A DNA stretch of 44,336 nt from Xenorhabdus griffiniae (GTDB lineage: Bacteria > Pseudomonadota > Gammaproteobacteria > Enterobacterales > Enterobacteriaceae): the NCBI RefSeq assembly GCF_001028135.1, contig NZ_LDNM01000047.1, positions 1 to 44,336 on the forward strand, read 5' to 3'. This document shows, one piece after another, positions 18,606 through 44,223 of the stretch. Each line of letters opens with the position of its first letter. Within the stretch, counting starts at the first letter, position 1. The notes under the pieces were generated by a model. That model saw nothing but the letters and a program-made list of their open reading frames with translations, searched no databases and had not been told where the DNA came from. The translations under genes were made by a program, and so were the position numbers.

Positions 18606-18698
18606 CAGCCTGTAGGGATAGGTATGTATACTCTATGACACAAAGGAACAACGACAAAAATACTACAAGTAACGCGATGCTCGACTTTAACATCCTAT

Positions 18699-22034: not shown

Positions 22035-25000
22035 ATGAGTATTTTAATCATGGGTAATCCTATTTTTGAGCTATCTAGATCACAGCAAGCTATTTTCAAA
22101 ATGGAAGCGTTCCATTTAACTGGCTACCCGTTTTATTTGAGTGTTGCGGTACGTTTAAGCGGGGATATTCCTCTGGATAAACTGACTCAGGCCGCTGAAA
22201 CGACCCAGAATTCAATGGATATATTTCATATTGGATTCGTTAATGACCATGCGGAAACAGATCACTTGACAACACAGTGGCATGGCATCCGGCGGCTCAC
22301 TCCTCATGCGGAAGTCATACAAGTCGATTTTAGCGGTTATCCGGATCCTAAACGGGCTTTCGAAAGTTGGGCGGAGCGCCAGACGTTGATAGAAGAAGAT
22401 TTATCATTGACACCGGTGCGCGTTTTTGCCGTGCGTTTTCAGCCGGAACAGACAGGCTGGTTTATTAAGGCACATCATGCGGCTACCGATGGTGAGGGAT
22501 TGTCAGTACTGATAGAACATCTGATGGGTGCGCTGGAAGAAGAAGAACCGGATACGGAATATCTGCTATTTTCGGTTAACGCGGAGGGTGAGCGGAATTA
22601 TGAAAACTCCCGGCGTATGCAAAGAGATGAAGCGTATTGGCGGAGTATTTTCAGTGACAATGCCGGTAACGAAACGGAATTCGTTAATGCCGGCAAAATA
22701 GCCAGCCGTTATCCGATTGGTGACTATCGCAGGCTAACGCCTCAATCCCGGCGTGTACGTTACGAACTGAGTGAAGCTGAAAACGATATACTGCGCCTGT
22801 TTAAAAGTCGTGGCGGCTCTATTTTCAGGCTGTTTTTCGCGGCTGTCGCCTATACACAAATGGTTATTGAAGATGGTAATGGCGCTTTATTGCAGGCACC
22901 GATGCTTAACCGCTGGAGTAATGAAGAGAAACGTTCTGCCTCTATGGCAGTGGCTCCGGTTTTGATCCCCGTATCCCGTGAAGCGGGGGAGACGGTGACA
23001 GATTGTTACCATATGCTTAAGCAGCGCTTGCAAAAAGCGGTTGCTCACTCACGTTATGCGCCAGGTGCCCGATGGAATGAATTTGCATCACAAGATTGGA
23101 AACGGATCATTCCCGCTTTCGGGGTTTCCTATCAAACTGGTATTTTCCGGAAAACTGTCTTAGGTGCTGACGTATCAATTGATCATATGCAGGCAGTAGA
23201 AGCACTGTTTGCGACCATTCATATCCATGACCGCTTTGAAGGTGGGAACTTCAAATTTGAGGGGGATTTCCGCAAGATATGGTCATTAGATCAATGTCAT
23301 ATGTTTCTGAAAACAGTCACTGATTATGCAATGGAAGCTGCCTGCGAAATTTTGGCGCAACAAGAAGTCACGCAGACACCATTAAGTAAAAAAGAGCAAG
23401 AAACCCACTCTTGGAAAGAACCTCAGACAAAACCGATCGGCGTTCATTTATACCATGCGTTTGAACGTTATGCTGATAACCTGTTATTCCAGCAGGGTGC
23501 TGATGCGGTGACTTATCGTCAGGGATTGCAATGGATTAACCAGTTCAGAGAACAGTTGCATACCATACGAAATGGGCAAAATGAGCACAATCCGGTATTT
23601 ATTCTGGGAAGACGTACACCTGAAACTGTGCTCGCTTATCTGGCTTGCCTGATTGAAAATGTGACTGTAGTTCCTGTTTGTCCGACCATGCCCTTAGCTA
23701 GATTATCGACTATTGCCCGTAATTCGGGGGCATCTCTCTGTATTTATACGGAAACCGACCATCACCTTGCAGAAATGCTGGGCTTGCGTTTGTTACGTGT
23801 TTCCTTGGATAAGGCAGGGCTTGATGTTGCATTGAATCCAGTAACATGGACAGAACAGACACATTGTCACCCTGCTTATATTCTCTATACTTCAGGATCG
23901 ACCGGAGAACCTAAAGGCGTAGTGATTTCCCCGATGGCGCTGGCAAATTATGTATTGGCGGCTAAGGTGGCTTACGCTGCGCAGACTCCATTTAATGCGC
24001 CTTTATTTACCTCCTTTGGTTTTGATTTAACACAAACCGCTATTCTGGTTCCGGTTTTGTCGGGCGGATTTATCCAACCTTATGAACAAGATATCCGTGA
24101 TAACCCTGAACTGCTGCAAACGTTACTGGCTGATGAGTCATTGACGGGCGTTAAATGCACGCCATCCCATCTCTCATTGCTGATTGAGCACAGCCCGGAA
24201 AGAAGTCATCCGCTGACTTTTGTTGTGGGTGGAGAAAATTTGTCCTCTTCTCTGGTGAAGAAAGCTCTCGATTATTTTCCTGTGGGAAGCAAAATAATCA
24301 ATGAATATGGGCCGACAGAAACAACAGTCGGATGCTGTATCTGTTCAGTGAGTGGGGGAGAAAGCTCTCCTGACGGTCATAACAAGATAAACACCGCAGT
24401 TATGCCTATCGGTACAGCGTTAGGTAAAGCAGAGATGTCGATAAAAAATTCTTGGGGGCAAAATATGCCCCGTGGATTCATGGGTGAAATTAGTATCAGT
24501 GGCCCGGTGCTGGCCATGGGATATCTCAACGACAGTATCCAGACGCAGGAAAAATTTGTGTGCCGTGCTGATGGTTTAAGCCGTTGGTATCGTACTGGTG
24601 ACTTAGGCTTACAGGACGAACAAGGAATATTTCATTGCCTTGGACGTATTGACGATGAGTTTAAGGTACGTGGCTACCGGATCCACCCAGCGGAAATAGA
24701 GAAAGCGGTGGAAAGTGTACTGACGAGTGTTGGGGAGAACGATAACTATAGTTGGGAGTTGAAGGCACTGAAACTGGTGGTTGATGAAGCGGATGGGTAT
24801 GAAACAGTCGCTTTGTGCAGCAGTCAGGCCATACCGCATGACAACCCGGAATTTCAACGTAGCCTGAAAACGAAAATTCCTGATGCTTGGTTGCCAACGC
24901 TGTACTGTACCGTACAACCCTGGCCGATTAATGCCAACGGTAAAGTTGATATGGCGGCGCTGACTGCCGCAGCTCAAGCGACGTTGATGGCGAGTGGTTC

Positions 25001-26648
25001 TTCCCTGCCCGGTTCAGCCAATGCACAACGGCAGAGCGCGCCGGGCACCTATCAACTGCCGGTCTGGTTAAATGCAAAGTTTCTGAAACCAATCTGGCCA
25101 CAGACCGTTGATCTAACCACTTCATTTCTGGAGCAGGGAGGAGACTCGATCAAAGCGATCAGGCTCGTCGCATTGTTAGCCAGAGAAGGGATTCGGATTG
25201 GTGCAGGTGAACTGTTAACGTTGAATTCTTTAGGCTCTGTTCTTGAAAAAGCCTGCGCAGCGGCGTTGGAAAACGGAGTCACTGATTCGGTTATATCAAA
25301 AGAACTTGAAGCAGGTTGGATTAAACACCTACCCAGTATTTGCTGGTTCCGGCAACAATGTTTCAAATATGGCAATCGTTTGCAACAAGGTATGGTGCTT
25401 GAGTTGAAATCTTCGCTCTCGGCTGAAGAAATAAACGCGGCTGTCTCGGTGGTTAAAGCAAGGCATAAAATTTTTGCTTTGAGAGCAAATCAAGATTTGA
25501 GTGAGTTTTACTTCGCATCCCCGGAACCGGAAGTGCATGACTTCGGTACAGTGACAGAAGGCGAGGTTCTGGCGCCGGGTGAACACCTTGAAAACAGATT
25601 GAATAAATTACAAAGCAGGGTTTGTCTGGAGAAACAGCCCAGCGTGCATTCGGTCGTATTTGATCCGGTTTCAGCCAGAAACTATCTGATTTGGGTTTGT
25701 CATCACCTTATTTGCGATGTGCATTCATGGATTTTCTTATTGGATGAGTTGGAGCAAGCTATCAATGGTTCTTTATTCCAGAATGCGAATGCAGAGGAAA
25801 CGACCCACGAACAAGGCGCATTCCTTTGGGGTAAATGGTTGGGAGAACACGTTCCTGAGGTGGATTATGTACCTTATGACGATACCGTCCATCACCCTCC
25901 GGTGACTCCGGTTACTTTGGCGCTGTCAATTTGTGGTTATGATTTGCGATTGATGGAGCAACGCCTTAAGGCTGAGCGTTCACAATTGATCGCTGCTGCT
26001 TTGATGGACGTTATGCAGGATAACGAAATATTGCCTCCACAGCCTGTCATCCTGTTTGAAAACCACGGGCGTTTATTCTCTGAAGCAGGTATTCCCGCAA
26101 CCCGGAATGCAGAAATAGCGAATGCGGTAGGTTGGTTTACCGGCTTTAATCAGTTGACCCTTAATGTTTCGTCAGAACACCCATGCCGACTTTCTCAGGC
26201 TGCTTTTTTGCGAATATTAAAGTCGGGTCTCTATGAAGATAAGCAGAGCTGGAAAGCACAATTGGGGCTGAATAATCCGGGAAAAAGACCACACATGTGC
26301 ATTAACGACATTGGCTTGGGATTAGAAGGGCGCGGAACATGGGGGCATTTCGATCTGGTGCAGTCCTTGTCGGGAGGTTTCCGGCATCCTGCCGAAAAGA
26401 GTGTGGCCGACTTTGACATACTTATTTGTGATTGCCGTGAATCTGGCTCTGTTTTAGTTGAGTTGAGGCTGGGCATTCCCAACGCTAATGGTGATGATGC
26501 GCAGCATTACCTGGCACAATTAAACGAAAAACTATTCTCGAACGAAAAGTTATTATTGAGCGAAAAGCCATACATACCTGCCGATTTTCCTCTTTGTCAA
26601 CTTTCACAATCGGAGCTTGATCTCATTATTAAGGGAGCCTCAGTATGA
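22035..26648 (+). CDS. NRPS, domains C-A(Asn)-T-E: probable N-acyl-D-asparagine loading module
   Basis: The protein has 1537 residues. An N-terminal condensation domain (about 1-440) has HHxxxDG at His147/148...Asp152-Gly153. As it comes first, it is probably a lipo-initiation domain that N-acylates the first amino acid. The adenylation domain (about 475-985) has YTSGSTGEPKG near 618, GFDLTQT (Asp664), NEYGPTE (Glu757), YRTGDL, GRIDDEFKVRGYR and Lys970. The specificity residues read DLTKVGEVGK, the asparagine pattern (Glu757 argues against Asp). The carrier domain has GGDSIK with Ser1038. The C-terminal domain (about 1090-1537) is an epimerase: HHLICD (His1223, Asp1228), FENHGR (Glu1342) and NAVGWFTG. 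Acyl-D-Asn is the removable prodrug cap in xenocoumacin, zwittermicin and colibactin pathways. The stop overlaps the next start by 4 bp (ATGA), implying coupling. ATG 22035 or 22050 could be the start; neither has a strong ribosome-binding site. Confidence 0.9.
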   Translation: MSILIMGNPIFELSRSQQAIFKMEAFHLTGYPFYLSVAVRLSGDIPLDKLTQAAETTQNSMDIFHIGFVNDHAETDHLTTQWHGIRRLTPHAEVIQVDFSGYPDPKRAFESWAERQTLIEEDLSLTPVRVFAVRFQPEQTGWFIKAHHAATDGEGLSVLIEHLMGALEEEEPDTEYLLFSVNAEGERNYENSRRMQRDEAYWRSIFSDNAGNETEFVNAGKIASRYPIGDYRRLTPQSRRVRYELSEAENDILRLFKSRGGSIFRLFFAAVAYTQMVIEDGNGALLQAPMLNRWSNEEKRSASMAVAPVLIPVSREAGETVTDCYHMLKQRLQKAVAHSRYAPGARWNEFASQDWKRIIPAFGVSYQTGIFRKTVLGADVSIDHMQAVEALFATIHIHDRFEGGNFKFEGDFRKIWSLDQCHMFLKTVTDYAMEAACEILAQQEVTQTPLSKKEQETHSWKEPQTKPIGVHLYHAFERYADNLLFQQGADAVTYRQGLQWINQFREQLHTIRNGQNEHNPVFILGRRTPETVLAYLACLIENVTVVPVCPTMPLARLSTIARNSGASLCIYTETDHHLAEMLGLRLLRVSLDKAGLDVALNPVTWTEQTHCHPAYILYTSGSTGEPKGVVISPMALANYVLAAKVAYAAQTPFNAPLFTSFGFDLTQTAILVPVLSGGFIQPYEQDIRDNPELLQTLLADESLTGVKCTPSHLSLLIEHSPERSHPLTFVVGGENLSSSLVKKALDYFPVGSKIINEYGPTETTVGCCICSVSGGESSPDGHNKINTAVMPIGTALGKAEMSIKNSWGQNMPRGFMGEISISGPVLAMGYLNDSIQTQEKFVCRADGLSRWYRTGDLGLQDEQGIFHCLGRIDDEFKVRGYRIHPAEIEKAVESVLTSVGENDNYSWELKALKLVVDEADGYETVALCSSQAIPHDNPEFQRSLKTKIPDAWLPTLYCTVQPWPINANGKVDMAALTAAAQATLMASGSSLPGSANAQRQSAPGTYQLPVWLNAKFLKPIWPQTVDLTTSFLEQGGDSIKAIRLVALLAREGIRIGAGELLTLNSLGSVLEKACAAALENGVTDSVISKELEAGWIKHLPSICWFRQQCFKYGNRLQQGMVLELKSSLSAEEINAAVSVVKARHKIFALRANQDLSEFYFASPEPEVHDFGTVTEGEVLAPGEHLENRLNKLQSRVCLEKQPSVHSVVFDPVSARNYLIWVCHHLICDVHSWIFLLDELEQAINGSLFQNANAEETTHEQGAFLWGKWLGEHVPEVDYVPYDDTVHHPPVTPVTLALSICGYDLRLMEQRLKAERSQLIAAALMDVMQDNEILPPQPVILFENHGRLFSEAGIPATRNAEIANAVGWFTGFNQLTLNVSSEHPCRLSQAAFLRILKSGLYEDKQSWKAQLGLNNPGKRPHMCINDIGLGLEGRGTWGHFDLVQSLSGGFRHPAEKSVADFDILICDCRESGSVLVELRLGIPNANGDDAQHYLAQLNEKLFSNEKLLLSEKPYIPADFPLCQLSQSELDLIIKGASV

Positions 26649-29600
26649 GAACCGCTATCGATTCAGCAAATACAGTATGCAGCGATAATTATATTGAAGA
26701 ACTGCTACAAGTGACGCCTCAAGCGAATGGGTTACTGTTTCACGCATTAAAAGATGGAAACAGCGCTTATCACATTGGTGTGGCATTCAGCTTGAAGGCG
26801 GATGCCGATAAAGAAACCCTCTTTGAAGTATGGCAGCAAATACAGCATTCACAGCCCGCTCTCAGGTCGGTTTTTGTCTGGGAAGGTATTCGCATTCCCC
26901 ATCAGGTTATTTATTCTTTGCCTCGAATTCCGTTCGAATATATCCGTATTGACTCAACGGCTCCAGTCCCGTCAATTAAACAGCGTTGCCTTGATTGGCT
27001 GGCACATTCTAAAGCCACGCCTTTTGCGTTGAACAAAGAAGTGTTTCGCATTGTTGGCTTCCACGATGTTAAGGCGGGAACGGTAAGTCTGGCCTTCTCT
27101 TTTCACCATATTCTGATGGATGGCTGGAGTAGTTCGCTGTTGATTTCCCTCTGGTTGCAGGAATTGCGTCAGCAAAAAATTGTTCCTCTGGATGCACGTA
27201 TCTATTCACAGCAACTCTGGCAGGGATTAAGTCAGGAAGCGTTGATGTCCAGTCGCGAATATTGGCGGGAAGTGTTTCAACATTTGCCCGGTGGAGAGTC
27301 TGCTGCAACAACCCGGCTCTTGGCTGAATCCCTGTTCCGGACCATTGGTTACGATGCGGCTGAGAAAACAATAAATGAAAAAATCGTCGTAAATAGCCTA
27401 TGGAGCGAAGAACGTAAGGCGGCCATAGAATCACTTTGCCGCCGCGCGGGGGTAACGTCAGCCAGTTTTATTTATCTATGCTGGGCATTGACGCTGGCTA
27501 AATTCACCTTCCAGAAAACCATTACGTTGGGCTGTACATTTTCCGGCAGAGGTGGGGCTTTGACGCAAGACATTGACCGTCAACCCTTAGGTCTGTTTAT
27601 CAATACCGTACCGCTTATCCTTACGCTTGAAGGTAAGTGGAATGTAGAAGCGGCTTTGCGTTCTGTTTTTCAAGCGTTACAACAGGCGCAACAATATGAA
27701 AAAACGCCTCCTTTATTGATCCGCGAGGAAGCGGGAATACGTGAAGAACTCTATGACTCTATTGTGGTTTTTGATAACTATCCCATTGATGCCACATTGA
27801 AAGATGCCAGTTGTGGTGCCTTCGTGACGGATTTATACAGTGAAGAAACGACGCATTTCGGTTTGACATTAACCGTTTCTGGTGTGGAGCAATGGTTAGT
27901 CGAACTCAGTGCCGGAGAAGTTTTCACGGGGGCATCTGATGCAGTAAAAGTGGCGTTTAATGGGTTTGAATCGTTGGTGGAAGATCTGATTAATCACACC
28001 ACAGATACCTTGATTGAAGATTTCATCTTAAAACTTGATACAGAGAAAGAAGAAGAAGGCTCTTTGTGCATTGGGGAGATCAACGAACAGACGCCGGATA
28101 TCAATTCATTGCTGACACGTATTTATCAGCGTCTTAGCGAATCTCCTCAAGGAATCAGCCTGATCTATGGACAAAATAGCATCGGCAATTGTGAGTTATT
28201 GAAAGGAGTGAGTGGCGTACAAGAACAGTTACGGTTATCGGGTTTTATTCCGGGAGACAGAGTTGCTGTTCATCTTGAAAAAGGATTGTTATCGACTCAG
28301 GCAATACTCGCAATATTATTCAGCGGTGGCAGTTACTTCTATGTCAATCCGAAAGATCCACTGCAACGTAAAAAGACCCTGTTAACGTTGGCAGATTGCA
28401 GCATTGTTTTATGTGATGCTTCCTTTAATAAAGAACTTGGCGAAGGGAGTGGGCGTTATTTGCTGCTGGATATTGAGGAAAAGATTTTGCGGCCATCTAC
28501 GGCGGAGCCGACGCTATGGACCAACCGACGGCCTGAAGATGAATTTTACTTTATATTCACGTCGGGAACGACAGGCACACCTAAGGGAATTGCGATCCGT
28601 AATGAATCGGTTGCAAACCTGCTGGACTGGTTTATTAAAGAGACGGTGCTGACAGCCGCTGATCGAGTGCTTGGGCTGACCGATCTGAATTTCGACCCCA
28701 GCGTAGAAGATTTATTGGGTAGTTTTGTTGTTGGTGCTACGCTGATCTATCCATCGCCGGATGTGTTACTGGAGAGGCAGGCGTTCATTGGGCTGTTGCA
28801 GTCTGAATCCATCACCTTAATTAATTTTATTCCCGGAGCCATTGCGCAGCTTATTCAGGATGCACCATTCCTGCCTGCCATGAGATTGTGGATATTCGGG
28901 GGTGAAGAATTACCCAAACGTCTGCGGGATGATTTGTTGCAGCAAGGGTATGCCGTTAGCAATCATTATGGACCCAGTGAGACGACAGTGGATTGTCTCA
29001 ACGCGAAACAATCCCTTACTGCGAATGTTGCCATCGGTTGGCCAATTCAAAATGTTATTGCCTACTGCGCTGATATATTCGGTAAACCATTGCCTGCCGG
29101 TGTTCGTGGTGAGCTTTGGGTGGGAGGCAAGGCGGTTACCCGTGGTTACACGACTAACCCCGTTGAGACGGCGAAGTATTTTGTTAAATCTAAGTATTTG
29201 GATCAATACAGTAAGCATCCTTTTTATCGCACTGGCGACATGGTTACTTTTTCCAGTGAATCAGGTTTTCGCTATCTGGGGCGGATTGATGATCAGATGA
29301 AGGTGAACGGTATTCGCATTGAACCGAGTGAACTGGAGCGTGTTGTTGAGACATTAGATACGGTTAAAGCCAGTTGTTTACTGCCCGCAATAGAATCGAA
29401 GGGAAAGCGCCAGTGGCATCTTTTTGTTGATAGCCATGAACCTTCTGCGAGATTGGAGCCTCGGGTACGGGAACATATCCGGCGTAATTTCCCGGAATCG
29501 TGGTTACCTTCACTCATTGTGGTTGTCGATGGGTTTGAACGTACCATTACCGGCAAGATTAATCGCCTAAGCTTACAGGAGTATGCTGCGCAACAACTGC

Positions 29601-29986
29601 AAATAAAACCTGTGCAAAATCATGTGGCATCGGCAGATCCGGTGGTGGCTAAAGTGCAAGCGGTCTGGAAAGCGGTGTTGGAAAGCCAGGTGATTGATAT
29701 AAAAATCAATTTCTTTGATGCTGGTGGTAACTCGATAAAGATAATTGCACTCCAATCCCAGTTGCAACAAACGTTCAATCAGGAGATTCGTGTCACTGTC
29801 TTATTTGAGCATCCGACGATTGCCTCTTTCTCAAACTGGATTAAACAGAGCCGGTTGTCACCTGAACAGGTGAACTTAGACAAACAATCATCCCCGGAGC
29901 ATATGCTGTCGTCATTCCAATCCGGCAAGAGCAGATTAGCGGACAGGCGACGCAAAGCAAAAGGCAGTACAGGAGAGCCTGTTTAA
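26645..29986 (+). CDS. NRPS, domains C-A-T: second amino-acid module
   Basis: The 1113-residue protein begins with a condensation domain (opening LLQVTPQANGLLFHAL; HHILMDG at His154/155 to Gly160). It should be of the type that accepts a D-configured donor, because an epimerase precedes it. The adenylation domain (about 500-985) has FTSGTTGTPKG near 640, NFDPSVED (Asp684, Glu688), NHYGPSE (His774), YRTGDM, GRIDDQMKVNGIRIEP and Lys971. I read its specificity residues as DPENIGHVDK. Asp684 indicates an alpha-amino acid, but I know no firm match; acidic residues at two pocket positions could suit a basic side chain. The carrier domain has GGNSIK with Ser1030. A basic tail (ADRRRKAKGS) after the carrier may dock to the PKS. 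No thioesterase is present, so the dipeptide should pass to the PKS. Confidence 0.9.
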   Translation: MRTAIDSANTVCSDNYIEELLQVTPQANGLLFHALKDGNSAYHIGVAFSLKADADKETLFEVWQQIQHSQPALRSVFVWEGIRIPHQVIYSLPRIPFEYIRIDSTAPVPSIKQRCLDWLAHSKATPFALNKEVFRIVGFHDVKAGTVSLAFSFHHILMDGWSSSLLISLWLQELRQQKIVPLDARIYSQQLWQGLSQEALMSSREYWREVFQHLPGGESAATTRLLAESLFRTIGYDAAEKTINEKIVVNSLWSEERKAAIESLCRRAGVTSASFIYLCWALTLAKFTFQKTITLGCTFSGRGGALTQDIDRQPLGLFINTVPLILTLEGKWNVEAALRSVFQALQQAQQYEKTPPLLIREEAGIREELYDSIVVFDNYPIDATLKDASCGAFVTDLYSEETTHFGLTLTVSGVEQWLVELSAGEVFTGASDAVKVAFNGFESLVEDLINHTTDTLIEDFILKLDTEKEEEGSLCIGEINEQTPDINSLLTRIYQRLSESPQGISLIYGQNSIGNCELLKGVSGVQEQLRLSGFIPGDRVAVHLEKGLLSTQAILAILFSGGSYFYVNPKDPLQRKKTLLTLADCSIVLCDASFNKELGEGSGRYLLLDIEEKILRPSTAEPTLWTNRRPEDEFYFIFTSGTTGTPKGIAIRNESVANLLDWFIKETVLTAADRVLGLTDLNFDPSVEDLLGSFVVGATLIYPSPDVLLERQAFIGLLQSESITLINFIPGAIAQLIQDAPFLPAMRLWIFGGEELPKRLRDDLLQQGYAVSNHYGPSETTVDCLNAKQSLTANVAIGWPIQNVIAYCADIFGKPLPAGVRGELWVGGKAVTRGYTTNPVETAKYFVKSKYLDQYSKHPFYRTGDMVTFSSESGFRYLGRIDDQMKVNGIRIEPSELERVVETLDTVKASCLLPAIESKGKRQWHLFVDSHEPSARLEPRVREHIRRNFPESWLPSLIVVVDGFERTITGKINRLSLQEYAAQQLQIKPVQNHVASADPVVAKVQAVWKAVLESQVIDIKINFFDAGGNSIKIIALQSQLQQTFNQEIRVTVLFEHPTIASFSNWIKQSRLSPEQVNLDKQSSPEHMLSSFQSGKSRLADRRRKAKGSTGEPV

Positions 29987-30380: not shown

Positions 30381-31253
30381 TTGAAAATATCAATTATTGG
30401 TGCCGGTATCATGGGGTTAGACACTGCAATAACATGTGCTGCATATGGACATAATATATTACTTATAGATATATCCTCAGAAGTTCTGGTAAATCTTGCT
30501 TCGCGAGTTTCAAGTGAATTCCGTTTATATCGGATGCTTAAACCTGAATTTAAATCTCTGGATATATCAGAATTGAAAGCGCGTATTCAATTTACTTCAT
30601 CTTATGAAGAGATTGAAGATAGTGACTGGGTAATTGAAAATGTCAACGAAGAGTGGGCGACTAAACAAGATGTTTATAAAAAAATAACGCCATACATTAA
30701 GCTTGAAACTTATGTTGCTGCAAACACAAGTTGTATATCCATCACAAAAATTGCAGCAGCGTTACCTTTTCCTCAAAAAGTACTTGGCCTCCACTTTATG
30801 AATCCCGTGCCTATAAAGAAATGTGTAGAAGTGATTAAAGGTTTCCATACTTCCGAACAAACATTGACTGAGGCAAAAAAATTCTTACAGGGCATTGAAA
30901 AAAATCCTGTGGTTGTAGAAGACTTTCCCGGATTTGTTTCTAATCGGCTTTCTCACTTATTCATGAACGAAGCGGCATTTCTCGTACAGGATAATCTCGC
31001 CAGCCCACAAGATATTGATCGCATCTTCAAAGAAGGTTACGGACATGCTATGGGGCCATTAGAAACCGCAGACCTGATTGGGCTGGATACGGTCGTTAAC
31101 TCTTTGCAGGTTCTCTATGAAAGTTATCAGGATCCGAAATACCGTTGCTGTCCTCTGCTAAGGAAAATGGTTGAGGCGGGAAATATTGGCAAAAAAAGTG
31201 GTAAAGGCTTTTTTAATTATAAAAACAGCAATGATAAAAATACGGAATATTAA
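30381..31253 (+). CDS. 3-hydroxyacyl-CoA dehydrogenase family protein of a hydroxymalonyl-ACP cassette
   Basis: The 290-residue protein has an N-terminal Rossmann fold with GAGIMG at residues 7-12. The conserved blocks ENVNEEW, ANTSCISITKIA, GLHFMNPVP and DFPGFVSNRL follow, with the helical C-terminal domain ending GKKSGKGFFNY. In hydroxymalonyl-ACP synthesis (FkbK, ZmaG and XcnB types) this family oxidises the C3 hydroxyl of glyceryl-ACP. The three genes that follow supply the rest of that pathway. The start is a TTG at 30381, eight residues before the glycine motif, with a run of six G upstream. The stop overlaps the next ATG (TAATG), implying coupled translation. A fatty-acid oxidation enzyme is unlikely in this context. 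Confidence 0.88.
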   Translation: MKISIIGAGIMGLDTAITCAAYGHNILLIDISSEVLVNLASRVSSEFRLYRMLKPEFKSLDISELKARIQFTSSYEEIEDSDWVIENVNEEWATKQDVYKKITPYIKLETYVAANTSCISITKIAAALPFPQKVLGLHFMNPVPIKKCVEVIKGFHTSEQTLTEAKKFLQGIEKNPVVVEDFPGFVSNRLSHLFMNEAAFLVQDNLASPQDIDRIFKEGYGHAMGPLETADLIGLDTVVNSLQVLYESYQDPKYRCCPLLRKMVEAGNIGKKSGKGFFNYKNSNDKNTEY

Positions 31254-32314: not shown

Positions 32315-32326
32315 TAGGATATGATA

Positions 32327-32584: not shown

Positions 32585-32591
32585 GATTTAT

Positions 32592-33951: not shown

Positions 33952-36900
33952 ATGGTAAATAATCTTACTGGTCTTGAAGTTGCCATAGTTGGAATGGCAG
34001 GTCAGTTCCCCGGTGCAGATAACGTACATGATTTTTGGGAAATGCTCCGTGATGGAAAAGAAGGTGTTAGCAGATTCACGCAAGAAATATTAGAAAATAA
34101 TGGCGTATCGGCTGAAGAATATTTACATGAAAATTATGTTTTTGCCAAAGGTGTAATCAATAATCCATATCATTTTGCGGCTGATTATTTCGCAATTAAT
34201 TACTCAGATGCAGAAAAAATGGACCCGCAAACTCGTTTGATGATTGAAACCTGTTGGCAGGCACTTAACCATGCTGGTATTGATGCCAAAAATTATCCGG
34301 GAGAAATTGGTGTTTACGCAGGAGCAGGTAATCAGTGGTCATGGTTTAAAACATTAAATACAGAATTCAGTTCTGCGGCAGAACAGTTCCATGTCGCTAC
34401 ATTAAATGACTCGGCATTTTGTTCCCGTATTTCCTATTTACTGAATTTACGCGGCCCGTCAGTCACGATACAAACAGCATGTTCAACTTCATTAGTTGCC
34501 GTGCATACAGCGTGTCAGGCTCTGCAAGCCGGAGAGTGTGAGGTTGCTTTAGCAGGGGGCGTCAGTGTAACGCACCCACATCAAACCGGCTATATGTATC
34601 AGGAAGGGATGATAAATAGCGCAGACGGCAAAACACGGGCATTTGATGAACATGCGGGTGGTACGGTATTCAGTAATGGCGTTGGTGTTGTTGTACTAAA
34701 AAGATTGAGTGATGCGATAGAAGATAACGATAGAATTTATGCCGTTATCAAAGGCAGCGCAATTAATAATGACGGCAGTGACAAAATAAGTTTTACTGCC
34801 CCTAGTACTTTGGGGCAGCAAAATGTGATTCAGGCTGCATTGGATGTCGCAGAAGTTGATCCTGACAGCATTAGTTATATAGAGGCACACGGGACAGGAA
34901 CTTTACTGGGAGATCCGATTGAAATTGCCGCCTTGAAAGCCGTTTTTAACGGGTCACAATCTTGTGCTATAGGTTCCGTCAAATCAAATGTGGGGCATTG
35001 TGATACCGCCGCAGGGATAATATCACTGATAAAACTCGCATTATGTGTCTATTTTAAAACGTTAGTGCCATCCATTAATTTTGAGAAAGCGAATAAAAAA
35101 TTAGAATTAGAAAAAACACCTTTTCATGTTAACACGCAAACAAAAAACTGGCTCAATAAAACGGATGAACTCATCACTGCGGGCGTCAGTGCCTTTGGTG
35201 TTGGTGGAACCAATGCGCATCTTGTGCTCCAGGAATTTGGGGAGCAAATGGAACCCATTTCGACAGAAAACTTAAATTATGAAGAACTTCCGAATCGAAT
35301 TGAGTTTAAACCGTTAATAAAACCAGATACTCCCCATCATCTGGCCGATGAGCAGGAAGAGAGTGTCATTTTTGCAGAAAAAATAGACATTAAATCTCTG
35401 ACTAAAAATATACTGGATATTTTTAAGGTATATTTTTCAAATAAGAAAATTTCGCCAGAGGATAATTTCTTTGATATCGGTGCCAGCTCTTTAGATATCG
35501 TTCAACTACACGAAAAGATCAATAACCATTACGCAATAAAATTAGCAGTTAATGATTTTTATCGCTATACAACCTGCCAGAAACTTTCTGGAAAAATACA
35601 CAGCTTAATCGGTGAAGCATCCCCTAAGATCATAAATAAGCCGAAAAAAGCAGCAAGAGGAAAGGCGTCAGGCAGTGAAAAAAGCGTATTTAATGATTAT
35701 CCGGCGCATGCCATTGCCGTCGTTGGCATGAGCGGCCGATTCCCCGGCAGTCATAACATACAGGAATATTGGAAAAATATACTGTCTGGCAAAGAGGGTA
35801 TTTCTTTCTTTACGGATGATGAACTGATCGATGCCGGATTTCCTGAACACATTTTCAAGAATAAGCATTATATCAGGGCAAAAGGCATTATTGAGCATTC
35901 ATTGGATTTTGATAAAGATGCTTTTGGCTATACCGCACGTGAATCACAATATATGGACCCACAATTCCGTTTGCTGCATGAAATAACGTGGCAAGTGCTG
36001 GATGATGCAGGATACGGTAACCCAAAATATCGCCCTGTCACGGGTCTGTTCGCCTCTTCCGGCTCTAATTACGCATGGCTGGATTTGGTAAAGGATGAAG
36101 TACAGGACACCACAGAACAATTTGGTATTGGATTATTAAATGACCGGGAATTTCTCACAACCAGAATCGCTTACAAATTGAATCTTACCGGGCCGGCCGT
36201 GACCGTTCAGAGTGCATGTTCCAGCTCTGCATTAGCGATAACGCTTGCCTGTCAGAGCCTGCGGGTCAATCAGTGTGATTTGGCACTGGCCGGAGGTGTT
36301 TCCGTCACCGTGCCGATAAAAAGCGGTTACATGTATGTCAATGGAATGGTGAATAGCGCAGATGGTCATTGCCGCCCGTTTTCTGAAGATGCCAGTGGTA
36401 CTGTTTTCAGCGATGGCATTGGCATGGTTGCTTTAAAAAGGCTGGAAGATGCCATTGAAAATAATGATCATATTTATGGCGTCATCGTTGGTTATGGTGT
36501 TAACAATGATGGTCATGAAAAAGCAGGATTTACCGCCCCGAATGCAAACGGGCAATCTGCCTGTATCAAACAATCTTTAGAAATGGCGGGTCTCTCTGCC
36601 AATGACATTGAATATCTGGAAGCGCATGGAACGGCAACACTGATTGGTGATGAAGTTGAATTAGAAGGCATTAAAGATGCTTTAAACGTTACCAGCGACC
36701 ACCCTAAAACTTGTCATATCGGCAGCGTTAAATCGAACATTGGTCACACCGATAGTGCCGCAGGTGTTGCGGGGATTATTAAGGCATTGCTGGCGTTGAA
36801 GAATAAGAAGATCCCACCCACTTGCCATACTGAAACTGCGCATCATTTATCGTTAGAAGGTACGCGGTTCCGTTTGATCAATACTGCCACTGATTGGGAA

Positions 36901-39900
36901 GATAACAATAATATCAGAACCGCAGGTGTCAGTTCGTTTGGCATTGGCGGAACCAATGTGCATATGACCGTCCAATCAATCTCAGATCAAGCCAGTAACG
37001 GGCAGGATCGTGCAGAACTCATCACGCTTTCAGGCAAAAGCAGAGAAGGGGTGATTAAAACGGCAGAAGCCCTGAGCCGGTTTTTGAGTACAGATGTTCA
37101 TACAAAGGCGCTTTCTGATATCGCTTATACACTCCAGATTGGAAGAGGAGAATATGAATATCGCACCTCGTTTGTTGCAGGAAATACAGAGGAGCTCAAC
37201 ACCGCATTATCTGGTGTTAAAGAGACAAACAAGATCGCGGAAATTTCCTCTGATCACATACCGGGTATTGTATTAATGTTCCCCGGTCAGGGTGCCCAAT
37301 ATATCAATATGGCAAGGGATTTATACAATGAGCTGAGTATTTTCAGAATGCAGCTTGATGAGTGTCATGAATATCTATTAGAGCATTTTGGAATAAATTT
37401 ACTTGCATTACTCTATGATGAGAAGAGTCAGGAGAGTGCAGAAAAACTCCGTAACACTCAATTTACCCAGCCGGTTATTTTTGCCGTATCTTATTCTCTT
37501 GCCAGAACTTTGGAGGCACTAGGAATAGAAATGAACGCAATGATTGGCCATAGTATTGGTGAATACGTTGCAGCAGCAATGGCAGGCGTCATGACATTGG
37601 ATGAGGCCCTAAAACTCGTTGCTGTCAGGGGCCTTATCATGCAGGAATGTGAGCTAGGAGCGATGCTGAGTGTTTCGGCGGGCAGAGAAGATATTGAGCC
37701 TTATTTGACAGATGAAGTCACGCTGGCAACGGTAAACTCATCGAGTGCCTGTGTTATCGCGGGGCCGCAGGTTGAAGTTGAGAAAGTTCAGCAAAATTTG
37801 CTTGCACAAAACTACCGTACCCGATTACTGGAAACCTCTCACGCCTTTCATACCTCAATGATGAAGCCTGCTGTAGAGAAATTTAAACAGGTTTTGAGGG
37901 AGATAAAGTGGAAAAAGCCCAATAAAGCCTACATATCAAATTTAACGGGCCAATGGATCACGGCAGAACAGGCAAATTCTGTCGATTATTGGGTTTCGCA
38001 CTTGTGTCAGACAGTCGAATTTCATCAAGGTATTCTGACTTGTTTGGAACAGTCTGAACTGAACACCTTTATTGAAGTCGGGCCGGGCAGAACATTGTCT
38101 ACGTTTGTTAAACAGATTGTTGCGACGAATCCAGATCTCTCTGTTATTAATGTGATGCGTCATCCATTAGAAGAGGAAAACGACAGAGTTTATTTATTAA
38201 AATTACTCGGACAACTCTGGATGAAAGGCCAATCCATCAATTGGCCGATTATTTACCAAAATCTGAATCCAAAACGAGTGAGTTTACCCGGCTATCAATT
38301 TATTTCAGAAAATATGGAGCTTGGAAACTCCGGCGTCAGTTTGAATGATTCAGAAAAAATATCTGAAATTCGAATCCCAAAAAATAACATTTCAGAATGG
38401 CTCTATGGTGAAATATGGCAGGATGCTCTCTTACCAAATAAATCGAGCCAATCTGACGTGAAAATGGCGCTCTGTTTTGTGCCGGACATCGAGTGGTGCG
38501 AGCCTCTTTGTCGTCATATGAATATTGACGAAAAAGCAGTAAGGTTTGTGTTATCAGGCGATAATTACACCACTGCGAACAATGTTATTACCTTGTCAGC
38601 AGGAGAAGTCAGCCATTTCGAAAGGCTGTTTAATGAATTAAAAGAGAATCAATTACAACCTGATTCGATAATATTTGCCTGGCCTTTATCGGGAAGCGAT
38701 GAAGTAAAAAACACGTGGTTTTCTGCCATTACTCTGCTTCAGGCATGGACAACAGTCGGAAATATGTGTGATTTCCGTTTGTTGCTGGTTAATACGGAAC
38801 AACCTGAATCCAATATGCTCAATGGCTTAGTAAAAGTCATTACGCAAGAAGTCAGCAAATGTCATCCCAGATTAGTACAAATCAACCCGACAGAATCGAT
38901 TGAAAAAAACTGTGAGATATTAACTGAAGAATTATTAGCAACAGGTGAGCGATTTATTGTTCGCCGGACAAAAGAGGGGTGTTCAAAGCAAGCCTATGAG
39001 CGGATTGCAATAAATCCACTGAAAGAACACTCGCTCCTTAAACCGCAGGGTATATACCTCATTACCGGAGGATTGGGGGATTTAGGGCTTTTATTTGCAG
39101 AATATCTCCTGAAAGAATATCGGGCGACAGTGATACTTTCCGGGCGAAGGGAATTACCTGATCAGCGTGAATGGAAACAAGCCATTAAATCGCATTCGCC
39201 ATCCTTCGAAATATTGCAGCGTCTCGATAAACTTTCCGATCTTGGTACAGGAAACTTAGCTTATTATGCTGCCAATGTCGCTGATAAGTCGGCAATGCAA
39301 CGTTTATTAACGACGATCTCCAAACAATATGGAGAATTGAATGGCATCATTTGTGCGGCGGGTGTCACGGAAGGAAACTCATTCCAGGGCATTAATAGGA
39401 TAACGTTGGACGCCTGTTTACCACAGTTAGAAACCAAAGTTGAGGCTTATAAGATTCTGGCAGAATTAACAGAAAATCAGCCGCTGGATTTCTGCCTGCT
39501 TTGTTCTTCAATTGCTGTGGTACTGGGAGGATTGAGTTTCTCTGCATATAGTTCTGTCAGTGCGTTTGCTGATTCTTTTGCGAAGCAACAAAGCAAGAAA
39601 GGTAAGCCCTGGATTAGTGTTAACTGGGACGGATGGGTTTTCGAACGTAATGATTCGGGTGATGCGCTGGGCTCCTCATTGAGTCAGCTTTTAATCGAAC
39701 CCGATGAAGGGATTAAAGTTTTAGAGCGTGTTTTACAATCACCATTAAGAGATCAAATTATTGTCTCCACTGGTGATCTAGATAAACGTTTTGCACAATG
39801 GGTTGGTAGTTATTTAAAAACGTTCGATATTAATAAAGTCAATCAATCCCAACGAAAAACAATTTCCAAAGCCCAAATCGTAGAAACTATCCTTTCGGTG

Positions 39901-42900
39901 TGGAAAGACTTTTTAAAAATAGCACATATTAACCGTGAAGATAATTTCTTTGAATTAGGTGCTAACTCATTGGATCTGGTTCAAGTTAATAAAAGATTAA
40001 CTGATGCGCTCAATATCGATATTTCCGTTGTTGATATGTTTAGTTATCCCACTTCTGATCTATTAGCTGACCATATAACAAACCAGTTTGGAACAGTCAG
40101 TACCGATAACGTTCAGGATGAAAGCGTTGAAGATAGCTATGACAGTGCTTATGTAGCTAAAAACATGATTAAATCGGAAGCGATATTTGATAAACACATT
40201 GCGATTATCGGCGTAGCCGGAAAATTCCCAGGTGCTGAGGATATTCATGAGTTTTGGGATAACTTATGCTACGGAAAAGAATCAATCAGCACAATGAGTA
40301 AGGAAGAGCTAATTGAAGAAGGTATTGATTCAGCATTATTAGACAATCCGAATTATATTCGGGCCAAAGGTATTATGCCTCATTCGGGTGAGTTTGATGC
40401 TGAATTCTTTGGTTATACCCATTACGAAGCGCGTCAAATGGATCCGCAAGTACGGGCTATGCATACTTGCAGTTGGCAGGCATTGCAGGATGCGGGAATA
40501 TCGGCAAAAAACAATAAGCTAAAAATTGGATTATATGCGGCTGCATCAGGGAATTTACAATGGTTAGCGCAGGCAATGGCAATGGCGGAAGGCAGTGCGG
40601 GTCAATATAGCGCTATGGTGGTTGCAGATAAAGATTATATGTCGACGAGCGTGTCATATAAATTAAACTTGTCCGGGCCAAGTATGGTTATCTCAACGGC
40701 CTGTTCTTCATCGCTTGTTGCCGTTAGTGAAGCGGTTAAATCACTGCGTGCGGGAGAATGTGATGTCGCTCTGGCAGGAGGTGTTTCAATTACCTTGCCA
40801 ATCAAAGCGGGCTATTTATTTGAAGAGGGTATGATTTACTCTAAGGATGGAAAATGCCGGCCATTTGATATTCAGGCAAACGGAACGGTATTTAGTGATG
40901 GCGTTGGTATGGTGGTGCTGAAACCACTAAAACAGGCAATAGCAGACAAGGATAATATTTATGCGACTATTATCGGCAGTGCAATTAACAATGATGGAGG
41001 TATGAAAGTCGGTTACACCGCGCCAAGCACAAAAGGTCAGATTGACGTTATTCAGGCTGCATTACGGGATGCAAATGTATCATCAGAAAGTATCAATTTT
41101 ATAGAAACACATGGTACGGGAACGAATTTGGGTGATCCCATTGAGTTCAATGCGTTGAAACAGGCTTTTTCAACGGATAAAAAGAACTATTGCAGAATTG
41201 GCAGTGTGAAATCAAATATAGGCCACCTGAATTTTGCTTCCGGAATCGCCGGGCTGATTAAAGCCGCATTATCCATCAAACATAGGGTGCTGCCACCCAC
41301 GATAAATTTCGCCCGTCTCAATAAAGAAATGGATATCACGAACAGCCCATTTATCGTTAATAACCAATATACGGAATTACGTGATAGTAAGAACCCAATC
41401 AGGGCAGGCGTTAGTTCTTTTGGCTTGGGTGGAACGAATGTGCATATTGTACTTGAAGAATTTCAGGTTGATCAGAACAAATCGTCCAGACAAAACGTCA
41501 ATAATCGATTGCCATTAATCTTGTCAGCACCGGATGAGAAATCATTGCAATCCTATAAAAAACAATTAAAGCAGGTAATTCAGAGCGATAACCAACAACT
41601 GAATGTGAGTGATATCACTTATAGTCTGATGTTAAGGGAGCCAATGGCATCACAAATTGTTGCTACAGTAAACAATCGTGATGAATTGGTTCAGGCGCTG
41701 TCTTCAACAGAAAAAGACAATATTAATATATCACTTGGTATTAAGCGAAAAGTGGTATTTTTGTTCCCTGGTCAAGGTGTTCAATATAGGGCTATGGGGC
41801 AGGATCTTTACAACAACAATGTGTTATTTAAACAATGGTGTGATAAAGGATTTTTAATTGCGAATGATTATTGCACAACTGACTTGAAAGCATTGCTTAT
41901 CAATGACTCTCAGGATGAACATGTTTATGAAACGGAATTTGTCCAACCGTTGCTGTTTATTATCGAATATGCGCTGGCACAAGTTCTGAAATCTTATGGT
42001 ATCACCCCCGATGTAATGATAGGCCATAGTTTGGGGGAATACGTGGCAGCGACACTGGCCGGAGTATTCTCATACGAAGATGCGGTTAGAATTATCTGCA
42101 TTCGCGGTCAATGTATGCAGTCAACAGAAGCGGCGGCTATGCTTGCCGTAATGTCTTCAACCGAGAAAGTGAAAGAAATAATAACTGAGGATATTGAAAT
42201 AGCCTTAGACAACAGTAGTGAGCTTTGTGTTGTCGCGGGATCTGATGATGGAATAACCCAATTCGAAGAAGTTTGTCGCGGGTTATTCATTAAAACGAAA
42301 CGTCTGGAAATTAAAAGAGCGTTCCATACTTGTTATATGGACCCTGTGCTGGACAAATATGGTCAGGCTTTCAAAGAAATCACACTCAATAAGCCTCAAA
42401 TTGATTTTATATCGAATGTAACGGGGACGTGGGTTGATAACAGCAAAGTCATGGCAAGTGACTATTGGATTAATCATATCCGCCAACCTGTACTCTTTAA
42501 ACAATCTATTACGATGATCTTAGAAAATGATAATTGCCTGTTTATAGAAGTCGGGCCAGGAAGTGGACTTTCTACTTTCGTTCAGAATCACTCAGATTAT
42601 GGCGTAAGTCATGCTTGTATCTCATGGCAAAGCCATAAAACCAGAGACATGAGTCACCATAATGAGCTGATAGAAAAATTAGCCTTGATCTCCTTACAGG
42701 GTGTTGATGTGAATTGGCAGCAGGAGATCAATGTCCAGCAGCCTGAATTGATTCATCTTCCCCCGACACCGATACGCGGAAAAGCATACCCGACAGATAT
42801 AAAAAGGTTGCAGGCATTATTTTCTGGCAATTCCCCTCATGTTGTTGAAAAAGAGGAAAGGAAAGAAGAACACGCAAAAGTGGGCAACACAATCAGAGAG

Positions 42901-44223
42901 GCCAGCACAAATATCAACTTGCTGGTACAGGAACGGGATAGAGTTATCACCGAATTAGGTTCTATTTGGAAACTCATTCTTGGTATTGATAGCGTTGAAA
43001 ACAGTGATGACTTTATTTCTCTGGGCGGGAGTTCTCTCTCCGCAGTGCAAGTGGTTGCAAAAGCGAAGGCAATCAATTTACCGATTAACATGAATATGTT
43101 GCTGTCGGGCCAGACTCTGGCTGAGATAAGCCGGCTATTAGATAATGACCTCAAGATTGAATATAACGGTTGGAAATTCAATGAGAATTTTTCACCTGAA
43201 TTATATCCAACGTATGCCAGTTGCTTGTATTCGGCAGTCAGAGAAAAACTGAAACATGAACATCATCTAAACTGCGATGATGCCATTATGCAGGTTTCAG
43301 ATGGCAGCCACTTAATTGGCATTGTATTACAACAGGCTGAAAATAAAATTAGATTAGCTAATCAGGAGGTTAACTTTGGTAATATGCTTGGCTGGCCTTC
43401 ATTAGAAGAAAATTATGCTTTCTCTTACGCTAAGACATTCTTCGAAGATTACGAATCCTATCAGAGCTACTGTGAAAAAGAGTTATCTCTTGGGAATGTC
43501 GTCATTGTAACCGGAAGTGACTACTATCTGCCTTTTTCACCTTCATACGGTTTATCAGAGGTGGAGTATATAACAAGGCCGCTATTCCAGGATATCGTGC
43601 TGGAAGACGAGACAATCCCGCATGCTTTTGTACTGGTTGGAAAGACCGATGCAGGGTATCAAATATATGATGGAAGCTTCCAATACTTTGGGGAGATCAG
43701 CGCACAGGAATTTGAGAAGACGGTTGTAGGGTTCAGAGGTTTAGATTTTATGGAGTCACATGAAGTCTTCAATAAATCCCGGCCTTATTTAGTGATTACC
43801 GTAAATTGCGCTGGTGATTTTCCTGATAGCCATGGACAGAAGGAACTCATTTTAAATAACCTGATTAATGATTTCAGAAGAAAAGAAGAGATAAAATATA
43901 ATGAAAATGAGTTTTCTTGTTATATAGGTCTGGCCGCGATAGAAAAACTTATTGAAACCCCAGGGATATTAACTAACAGTACTGCTAATAATTTGGAGGA
44001 AATATTCACACGTTGGAATAATCAATTTAATTCATTAAGGGATTTTTTAATTCTCGTAAGGCCAGAACATGCCGAACAATTCGAAAGCTCATTCTATTTT
44101 ATCAATGGAAGAATGAAAGAATTGATTGCATCGTGTCAGAATAATGACCATGACAGGAATAGGTTGAATTGCTTAAATCTCATAAAATCGGAATTGAATT
44201 CCGTTATTGATATTCTCGGTTAA
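33952..44223 (+). CDS. Multimodular type I PKS: KS-ACP / KS-AT-KR-ACP / KS-AT-ACP with BtrH-like C-terminus
   Basis: The protein has 3423 residues. Module 1: KS (about 8-428; TACSTS, Cys177; EAHGTGT; NVGHCD) and ACP (GASSL, Ser513), without an AT. Module 2: KS (586-1008; Cys756; EAHGTAT), AT (from about 1106; GHSIGE, Ser1201; HAFH 1297-1300, the malonyl pattern), KR (TGGLGDLG near 1705; Ser1853, Tyr1866; no LDD motif; Ser for the usual Asn after Tyr) and ACP (GANSL, Ser2006). Module 3: KS (2081-2503; Cys2251; ETHGTGT), AT (from about 2601; GHSLGE, Ser2693; RAFH 2789-2792) and ACP (GGSSL, Ser3028). From about 3075 a Cys-His-Asp domain replaces a thioesterase. It should extend the NRPS dipeptide by three units, one of them probably hydroxymalonyl-derived. 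ATG 33952 follows AAAGG. It lies 208 bp after the cassette. Confidence 0.92.
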   Translation: MVNNLTGLEVAIVGMAGQFPGADNVHDFWEMLRDGKEGVSRFTQEILENNGVSAEEYLHENYVFAKGVINNPYHFAADYFAINYSDAEKMDPQTRLMIETCWQALNHAGIDAKNYPGEIGVYAGAGNQWSWFKTLNTEFSSAAEQFHVATLNDSAFCSRISYLLNLRGPSVTIQTACSTSLVAVHTACQALQAGECEVALAGGVSVTHPHQTGYMYQEGMINSADGKTRAFDEHAGGTVFSNGVGVVVLKRLSDAIEDNDRIYAVIKGSAINNDGSDKISFTAPSTLGQQNVIQAALDVAEVDPDSISYIEAHGTGTLLGDPIEIAALKAVFNGSQSCAIGSVKSNVGHCDTAAGIISLIKLALCVYFKTLVPSINFEKANKKLELEKTPFHVNTQTKNWLNKTDELITAGVSAFGVGGTNAHLVLQEFGEQMEPISTENLNYEELPNRIEFKPLIKPDTPHHLADEQEESVIFAEKIDIKSLTKNILDIFKVYFSNKKISPEDNFFDIGASSLDIVQLHEKINNHYAIKLAVNDFYRYTTCQKLSGKIHSLIGEASPKIINKPKKAARGKASGSEKSVFNDYPAHAIAVVGMSGRFPGSHNIQEYWKNILSGKEGISFFTDDELIDAGFPEHIFKNKHYIRAKGIIEHSLDFDKDAFGYTARESQYMDPQFRLLHEITWQVLDDAGYGNPKYRPVTGLFASSGSNYAWLDLVKDEVQDTTEQFGIGLLNDREFLTTRIAYKLNLTGPAVTVQSACSSSALAITLACQSLRVNQCDLALAGGVSVTVPIKSGYMYVNGMVNSADGHCRPFSEDASGTVFSDGIGMVALKRLEDAIENNDHIYGVIVGYGVNNDGHEKAGFTAPNANGQSACIKQSLEMAGLSANDIEYLEAHGTATLIGDEVELEGIKDALNVTSDHPKTCHIGSVKSNIGHTDSAAGVAGIIKALLALKNKKIPPTCHTETAHHLSLEGTRFRLINTATDWEDNNNIRTAGVSSFGIGGTNVHMTVQSISDQASNGQDRAELITLSGKSREGVIKTAEALSRFLSTDVHTKALSDIAYTLQIGRGEYEYRTSFVAGNTEELNTALSGVKETNKIAEISSDHIPGIVLMFPGQGAQYINMARDLYNELSIFRMQLDECHEYLLEHFGINLLALLYDEKSQESAEKLRNTQFTQPVIFAVSYSLARTLEALGIEMNAMIGHSIGEYVAAAMAGVMTLDEALKLVAVRGLIMQECELGAMLSVSAGREDIEPYLTDEVTLATVNSSSACVIAGPQVEVEKVQQNLLAQNYRTRLLETSHAFHTSMMKPAVEKFKQVLREIKWKKPNKAYISNLTGQWITAEQANSVDYWVSHLCQTVEFHQGILTCLEQSELNTFIEVGPGRTLSTFVKQIVATNPDLSVINVMRHPLEEENDRVYLLKLLGQLWMKGQSINWPIIYQNLNPKRVSLPGYQFISENMELGNSGVSLNDSEKISEIRIPKNNISEWLYGEIWQDALLPNKSSQSDVKMALCFVPDIEWCEPLCRHMNIDEKAVRFVLSGDNYTTANNVITLSAGEVSHFERLFNELKENQLQPDSIIFAWPLSGSDEVKNTWFSAITLLQAWTTVGNMCDFRLLLVNTEQPESNMLNGLVKVITQEVSKCHPRLVQINPTESIEKNCEILTEELLATGERFIVRRTKEGCSKQAYERIAINPLKEHSLLKPQGIYLITGGLGDLGLLFAEYLLKEYRATVILSGRRELPDQREWKQAIKSHSPSFEILQRLDKLSDLGTGNLAYYAANVADKSAMQRLLTTISKQYGELNGIICAAGVTEGNSFQGINRITLDACLPQLETKVEAYKILAELTENQPLDFCLLCSSIAVVLGGLSFSAYSSVSAFADSFAKQQSKKGKPWISVNWDGWVFERNDSGDALGSSLSQLLIEPDEGIKVLERVLQSPLRDQIIVSTGDLDKRFAQWVGSYLKTFDINKVNQSQRKTISKAQIVETILSVWKDFLKIAHINREDNFFELGANSLDLVQVNKRLTDALNIDISVVDMFSYPTSDLLADHITNQFGTVSTDNVQDESVEDSYDSAYVAKNMIKSEAIFDKHIAIIGVAGKFPGAEDIHEFWDNLCYGKESISTMSKEELIEEGIDSALLDNPNYIRAKGIMPHSGEFDAEFFGYTHYEARQMDPQVRAMHTCSWQALQDAGISAKNNKLKIGLYAAASGNLQWLAQAMAMAEGSAGQYSAMVVADKDYMSTSVSYKLNLSGPSMVISTACSSSLVAVSEAVKSLRAGECDVALAGGVSITLPIKAGYLFEEGMIYSKDGKCRPFDIQANGTVFSDGVGMVVLKPLKQAIADKDNIYATIIGSAINNDGGMKVGYTAPSTKGQIDVIQAALRDANVSSESINFIETHGTGTNLGDPIEFNALKQAFSTDKKNYCRIGSVKSNIGHLNFASGIAGLIKAALSIKHRVLPPTINFARLNKEMDITNSPFIVNNQYTELRDSKNPIRAGVSSFGLGGTNVHIVLEEFQVDQNKSSRQNVNNRLPLILSAPDEKSLQSYKKQLKQVIQSDNQQLNVSDITYSLMLREPMASQIVATVNNRDELVQALSSTEKDNINISLGIKRKVVFLFPGQGVQYRAMGQDLYNNNVLFKQWCDKGFLIANDYCTTDLKALLINDSQDEHVYETEFVQPLLFIIEYALAQVLKSYGITPDVMIGHSLGEYVAATLAGVFSYEDAVRIICIRGQCMQSTEAAAMLAVMSSTEKVKEIITEDIEIALDNSSELCVVAGSDDGITQFEEVCRGLFIKTKRLEIKRAFHTCYMDPVLDKYGQAFKEITLNKPQIDFISNVTGTWVDNSKVMASDYWINHIRQPVLFKQSITMILENDNCLFIEVGPGSGLSTFVQNHSDYGVSHACISWQSHKTRDMSHHNELIEKLALISLQGVDVNWQQEINVQQPELIHLPPTPIRGKAYPTDIKRLQALFSGNSPHVVEKEERKEEHAKVGNTIREASTNINLLVQERDRVITELGSIWKLILGIDSVENSDDFISLGGSSLSAVQVVAKAKAINLPINMNMLLSGQTLAEISRLLDNDLKIEYNGWKFNENFSPELYPTYASCLYSAVREKLKHEHHLNCDDAIMQVSDGSHLIGIVLQQAENKIRLANQEVNFGNMLGWPSLEENYAFSYAKTFFEDYESYQSYCEKELSLGNVVIVTGSDYYLPFSPSYGLSEVEYITRPLFQDIVLEDETIPHAFVLVGKTDAGYQIYDGSFQYFGEISAQEFEKTVVGFRGLDFMESHEVFNKSRPYLVITVNCAGDFPDSHGQKELILNNLINDFRRKEEIKYNENEFSCYIGLAAIEKLIETPGILTNSTANNLEEIFTRWNNQFNSLRDFLILVRPEHAEQFESSFYFINGRMKELIASCQNNDHDRNRLNCLNLIKSELNSVIDILG
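43174..44223 (+). other. BtrH-like C-terminal domain of the PKS (putative acyltransferase/off-loading)
   Basis: Residues about 3075-3423, following the last ACP, match no KS, AT, KR, C or thioesterase pattern and lack a GxSxG motif. They resemble the butirosin BtrH N-terminal family: YASCLYSAVREKL (Cys3091), a central TGSDYYLPFSPSYG, and PHAFVLVGKTDAGYQIYDGS (His3224, Asp3240), followed by a mostly helical part. BtrH moves an acyl group from a carrier protein to an amine of an aminoglycoside through a cysteine. By analogy this domain may transfer the finished chain from the last ACP to an amine. The family match is from memory of motifs, so it is moderate; the transfer role is inference. Confidence 0.6.

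Follow-up and report, generated by a model that had tools for sequence, protein, structure and literature searches.

Xenocoumacin is made by a cluster described as 14 genes, xcnA-N (PMC6391269, PMC5688692), and is composed of arginine, leucine and four acetates, with xcnBCDE serving to form hydroxymalonyl-ACP (PMC5688692). The products, the prodrug step and the conversion mediated by XcnM and XcnN are known from papers on X. nematophila, and seven Xenorhabdus species, X. indica and X. kozodoii among them, have been listed as having the cluster or its product (PMC9232601). The amicoumacin (ami) cluster of X. bovienii, studied here in strain T228 and described for strain Moldova (PMC5055758), has the same acyl-D-Asn prodrug logic.

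Here, we consider a stretch of 44,336 bases (hereafter the window), which is the entire contig C179 of a 4.18-Mb genome in 230 contigs. Its right part carries two NRPS genes, a four-gene extender cassette and a large PKS gene, and it is nearly certain that these are xcnA-F and make up one half of a complete xenocoumacin cluster, which is an already-known pathway. The comparison genomes are X. indica DSM 17382 (G011), X. kozodoii DSM 17907 (G016), X. koppenhoeferi DSM 18168 (G007), X. mauleonii DSM 17908 (G003) and X. bovienii T228 (G019), together with G013 and G017, which we take to be X. nematophila ATCC 19061 and X. doucetiae, respectively. The identification of G013 is based on matches to primers for the X. 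nematophila xcnA promoter. Of the eight such published primers (PMC13168091), seven match G013 exactly and the eighth with one mismatch, all within 600 bases upstream of an NRPS gene encoding 2672 aa; G017 and the X. koppenhoeferi genome each have three exact matches, and the window has none with fewer than four mismatches.

Gene content of the window

The left part of the window consists of ordinary chromosomal genes, namely those for homoserine O-succinyltransferase, malate synthase, isocitrate lyase, aceK, an IclR regulator, an aspartokinase-type protein, pgi, chorismate lyase, ubiA, glycerol-3-phosphate acyltransferase, lexA and a FUR-type regulator. Between these and the insertion elements lie an ORF without any Pfam match (17454-17969) and a gene for a DUF1266 protein (18024-18605). 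The insertion elements have inverted arms of 1070 nt and 72 nt that are 100% complementary, and the presence of paired IS4-family copies beside the cluster is a sign of recent transposition. At the other end, 113 bases of the contig remain past the 3' end of xcnF, and the rest of the cluster is located on another contig.

Table 1. Coordinates of the cluster genes and adjoining elements in the window
Feature	Position	Strand	Description
IS4-family element	18698..21480	.	2 copies, inverted orientation; immediately left of xcnA-1
xcnA-1	22035..26648	+	NRPS, 1537 aa, C-A-T-E
xcnA-2	26645..29986	+	NRPS, 1113 aa, C-A-T
xcnB	30381..31253	+	3-hydroxyacyl-CoA dehydrogenase type; hydroxymalonyl-ACP formation
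xcnC	31253..32314	+	FkbH-type protein, TIGR01686, E 5e-76
xcnD	32321..32584	+	Stand-alone ACP, 87 aa
xcnE	32592..33743	+	Acyl-CoA dehydrogenase type
xcnF	33952..44223	+	PKS, 3423 aa
XcnF terminal domain	43165..44220	+	352 aa, residues 3072-3423 of XcnF

The two NRPS genes overlap by four bases (ATGA). The second condensation-type match of xcnA-1, near its C-terminal end, carries the motif HHLICDVHSW and is the E domain. Its A domain displays the code DLTKVGEVG, read at the positions of the GrsA code and located by motif, which we take to be of the Asn type; the corresponding code in G013, G017, X. koppenhoeferi and X. mauleonii is DLTKIGEVG, with Ile where the window has Val. By homology, the xcnA-1 product is predicted to make the N-acyl-D-Asn cap, its identity being 74% to the N-terminal part of XcnA of G013 and 90-91% to the X. 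kozodoii and X. indica proteins. The A domain of xcnA-2 has the code DPENIGHVD, which is the same in all seven xcn clusters examined. Taken together with the arginine found in xenocoumacin (PMC5688692), this sharing indicates that DPENIGHVD is XcnA's own code, and, going by the known product, the substrate of this domain is arginine.

Whereas xcnA is a single gene in G013 (2672 aa), G017, X. koppenhoeferi and X. mauleonii, it is present as two genes, split at the same place, in the window, X. indica and X. kozodoii. As X. kozodoii has been reported to produce xenocoumacin (PMC6305712), the split form is presumably functional.

Strong relatives of the first NRPS (E up to 1e-150) were recovered from 14 of 60 genomes, the window genome included, all of one genus. 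Additional genes of this type with 61-66% identity lie outside the xcn block in G028, G021, G012, G008, G018, G009 (two) and on contig C517 of X. bovienii T228, and second copies outside the block also occur in X. mauleonii, X. indica and G017. These probably belong to further assembly lines of the genus, of the acyl-D-Asn type or a related one.

The hydroxymalonyl-ACP cassette follows in the order xcnB-E. XcnF then comprises three KS, two AT, one KR and three ACP domains arranged as KS-ACP, KS-AT-KR-ACP and KS-AT-ACP, followed by a terminal domain. The KS and AT active-site motifs and the ACP serines were all found, and no AT match was obtained in the first module of the window copy. The protein is 80% identical to its G013 counterpart (3421 aa) over 3431 aligned positions.

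The second half of the cluster

The remaining eight genes, xcnG-N, are found at the start of contig C16 of the same genome (C16:212-18525) and are 90-96% identical to those of X. indica; the junction of C179 with C16 would follow from synteny. Pfam domain calls made on the X. indica copies identify XcnG as a beta-lactamase/S12 protein, XcnH as KS-AT-KR-ACP-C, XcnI as a thioesterase, XcnJ as Darcynin, XcnK as A-T, XcnL as KS-AT-KR-ACP, XcnM as a saccharopine dehydrogenase and XcnN as a desaturase. In the window genome, xcnG (C16:212-1693) is 90% identical to its X. indica equivalent, xcnH, I, J, K and L follow in order at 90-95%, and both xcnM and xcnN are present. In XcnG, the N-terminus is hydrophobic, an SxxK motif (STSK) is present and the C-terminal part contains hydrophobic segments, as expected from ClbP (PMC9889268); the single pattern used to look for a YxN motif, Y[SA]N, gave no match.

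The same succession is seen in X. indica, X. kozodoii, G013 and G017, where the PKS is followed by an S12 peptidase of about 487 aa, KS-AT-KR-ACP-C, a thioesterase, a 107-aa protein, A-T, KS-AT-KR-ACP, a saccharopine-dehydrogenase-type protein and a desaturase. X. koppenhoeferi has all of xcnG-N except the thioesterase gene xcnI, of which 44 residues survive as a remnant; in X. mauleonii, xcnG-L are present, and xcnM and xcnN were not found within the stretch taken.

Two further observations concern this contig. XcnJ (L042:8503-8826, 107 aa) matches the Pfam family Darcynin (E 5e-10), a domain of unknown function, and occurs in all seven xcn clusters and in the X. bovienii ami cluster. To the right of xcnN, a gene (L042:18769-19941) fuses BpsA_C, the branched-chain polyamine synthase domain, to an AdoMet decarboxylase. 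Of 60 genomes, 23 contain a match to it; all belong to this genus, some with xcn and others without, and, as most of these lack the XcnF terminal domain, we reject it as a member of the cluster.

Relationship to described clusters

The entire seven-gene block of the window occurs in six other Xenorhabdus genomes at 71-95% identity: 90-95% for X. indica and X. kozodoii, and 71-89% for G013, G017, X. koppenhoeferi and X. mauleonii (74-89% for G013 taken singly). G013 contains 14 genes in the order xcnA-N, 13 of them in the ORF list and the ACP located by tblastn, and is like the window genome in gene number, gene order, domain content, the second A-domain code and the XcnF terminal domain; it differs in having one 2672-aa xcnA in place of two overlapping genes. 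X. indica and X. kozodoii are closer still, with the same split of xcnA and with xcnG-N next, although their clusters run unbroken through xcnN on one contig, whereas the window half ends with its contig. By this homology, the window strain would make the same product as the known xcn clusters.

The better of two alternatives, itself very improbable, is that the window carries a cluster for amicoumacin of the X. bovienii kind, in which the second residue is Asn instead of Arg. The function of XcnA is split over two genes in X. bovienii too (PMC5055758), and the similarity to the window is considerable, with 79-82% identity for the extender genes, 70% between XcnF and AmiL-M, and 59% for the terminal domain. 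The cluster that we used for this comparison (G019:C133) agrees with Table 1 of PMC5055758 in that 12 of 16 proteins are of identical length; AmiB and AmiQ differ by 8 and 12 residues, the ACP was located by tblastn and the 46-aa AmiP fell below the ORF cut-off used. However, its gene order is unlike that of the window, it additionally encodes an acetyltransferase and a transporter, and neither of its NRPS genes, those of AmiA and AmiI-1, matches the two NRPS genes of the window at 40% identity or more. Further, xcnM and xcnN are present in the window genome and absent from the ami cluster, and the second A-domain code of the window is that of XcnA in G013. We accordingly reject this alternative.

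That the locus is instead a hybrid cluster of a new kind, yielding a water-soluble product of its own, as might be supposed from the split xcnA, a second A-domain code strange to the original prediction and an unannotated PKS terminal domain, is the least credible reading, being refuted as to architecture by the domains, order and code held in common with the xcn clusters of G013, X. indica and X. kozodoii at 74-95%, by the terminal domain present in all of these known clusters, and by the xcnA-promoter match of G013.

Much of the original prediction is thus upheld. Its genes are all in place, the C-A(Asn)-T-E line followed by C-A-T is there in two genes, and the three-KS PKS with a KS-ACP first module is that of XcnF. 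The acyl-D-Asn prodrug start is borne out by the domains of the first NRPS, its Asn-type code and the homology to XcnA, and the hydroxymalonyl-ACP cassette and the noted resemblance of its order to xcnB-E, and of the whole to xenocoumacin, hold as well. The ClbP/XcnG-type peptidase that was to be sought rightwards is xcnG on contig C16. Its claim that no described cluster has this combination falls, as the xenocoumacin cluster has the same gene and domain order at 74-95% identity, so that a described counterpart of high identity largely exists, along with the peptidase; nor is the code of the second NRPS unfamiliar, being the one common to the seven xcn clusters.

The assembly line

We propose that the assembly line acts in the order XcnA, XcnH, XcnK, XcnL and XcnF. 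XcnA-1 would make the acyl-D-Asn unit and XcnA-2 would add arginine, after which XcnH, encoded on contig C16, is predicted to extend the chain with hydroxymalonyl from XcnB-E. The choice of XcnH emerges from the AT motifs, judged by those in Table 2 of PMC4207774: both ATs of XcnF have GHS(I/L)G, (H/R)AFH and RTR or KTK and are of the malonyl type, whereas the AT of XcnH has GYSFG and HAAH without RXR. Hence, XcnB-E supply XcnH and not the adjoining XcnF; hydroxymalonyl use by the latter, the assembly order implied by the original prediction, is rejected. The hydroxymalonyl-ACP extender is also common to zwittermicin A, with GYSFG being the motif reported for the AT of ZmaA. Downstream, XcnK would bring leucine, and XcnL and then XcnF would add four malonyl units. 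The zwittermicin assembly line and product differ from those of xenocoumacin.

As the last PKS, XcnF would build the dihydroisocoumarin ring. With no KR in the first module, a KR in the second and none in the third, its modules would leave a keto group available for closing the ring, a hydroxyl that aromatization removes and the phenol of 8-hydroxydihydroisocoumarin, such that the chain could close to 8-hydroxy-3,4-dihydroisocoumarin, with the XcnF terminal domain possibly effecting release. XcnG, a membrane S12 peptidase, is then expected to remove the acyl-D-Asn, and XcnM and XcnN to turn Xcn1 into the weaker Xcn2.

The terminal domain of XcnF

The terminal domain is confined to this family of PKSs in the data searched. 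Strong matches occur in 8 of 60 genomes, counting the window genome, and each lies in an open frame of about 3420 aa; every one of the eight xcn or ami clusters examined has the domain. A ninth match among the 60 genomes is weak and attributable to chance, and a 24% match in G046 was discarded as an unrelated dehydrogenase-type protein. Across 398 genomes of the phylum (E up to 0.01), only two matches were obtained, one in the window genome and the other a chance 55-residue fragment with stops; plasmids had none. Scanning named genome contigs with sequence patterns yielded 101 stretches, of which five were relatives of the domain, all from Xenorhabdus; these patterns derive from Xenorhabdus and may miss distant forms, and the Bacillus ami clusters did not appear in the scan.

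Profile libraries likewise returned nothing significant: there was one chance-level match each in the PDB sequences (E 0.17) and NCBIfam (E 0.2), and no Pfam family match, with none to PF14399 (BtrH_N) up to E 1. A PF14399 search of the window genome up to E 10 left the domain unmatched, giving a weak match on another contig only. Plain HMM searches between the domain and the BtrH family found nothing, and hhalign against PF14399 gave probabilities of 0.3% with ten members and 0.6% with six clean members. The BtrH-like character that the original prediction ascribed to this domain is therefore not significantly supported by any of Pfam, NCBIfam, PDB sequences and hhalign, and what speaks for it is a collinear pattern of Cys, LP[FY], His and Asp. 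Cys20, His153 and Asp169 (domain numbering) are invariant in all eight terminal domains, where they form part of long stretches of invariant sequence in the first ~220 residues. The statistically insignificant hhalign alignment with PF14399 covers residues 18-195 and pairs the N-terminal Cys, LP[FY] and His, and in a joint alignment with PF14399 members all four elements are collinear. A first regular expression fitted three of ten family members and was then loosened; the loosened pattern, written, like all the expressions used, after seeing both sets, fits 8/8 domains, 8/10 family members and 7 of 20,000 shuffles. Going by this pattern, kinship with BtrH is possible but unproven.

The domain is perhaps a release or ring-closing domain. 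Our tentative and rather doubtful proposal is that the C-terminal 350 residues of XcnF represent a PKS release domain of an undescribed type. It would be a remote relative of BtrH, acting as a Cys-His-Asp acyltransferase, and would take the finished chain from the last ACP and close it to the dihydroisocoumarin, the lactone being formed on the hydroxyl derived from leucine, either together with ring formation or afterwards. The figure-legend domain list for the Bacillus pathway (PMC4894447) names no release domain; among the literature matches listed, going by titles and abstract openings, no paper assigns one.

A quite plausible alternative, though short of an even chance, is that this region is a non-catalytic linker or docking region and that the chain is released by the XcnI thioesterase, another enzyme or spontaneous chemistry. 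The absence of significant profile or PDB-sequence matches agrees with this, as do an AlphaFold model of mean pLDDT 50.1 and pTM 0.42 that is confident only in the C-terminal helices, and the very existence of a thioesterase in XcnI. Against it stand the invariance of the Cys, His and Asp residues and the remnant state of XcnI in X. koppenhoeferi, which suggests that the thioesterase may be dispensable for release.

Significance

With the window, a documented antibiotic pathway gains a further Xenorhabdus genome. Beyond this, two small points may be of use: xcnA exists as one or two genes among close relatives, and XcnF, the PKS expected to form the ring, ends in a conserved domain, unnamed in the libraries searched, at the very place where release and ring closure must happen. 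If the release-domain proposal for XcnF is true, this domain would fill the release step of both the xenocoumacin and the X. bovienii amicoumacin pathways.
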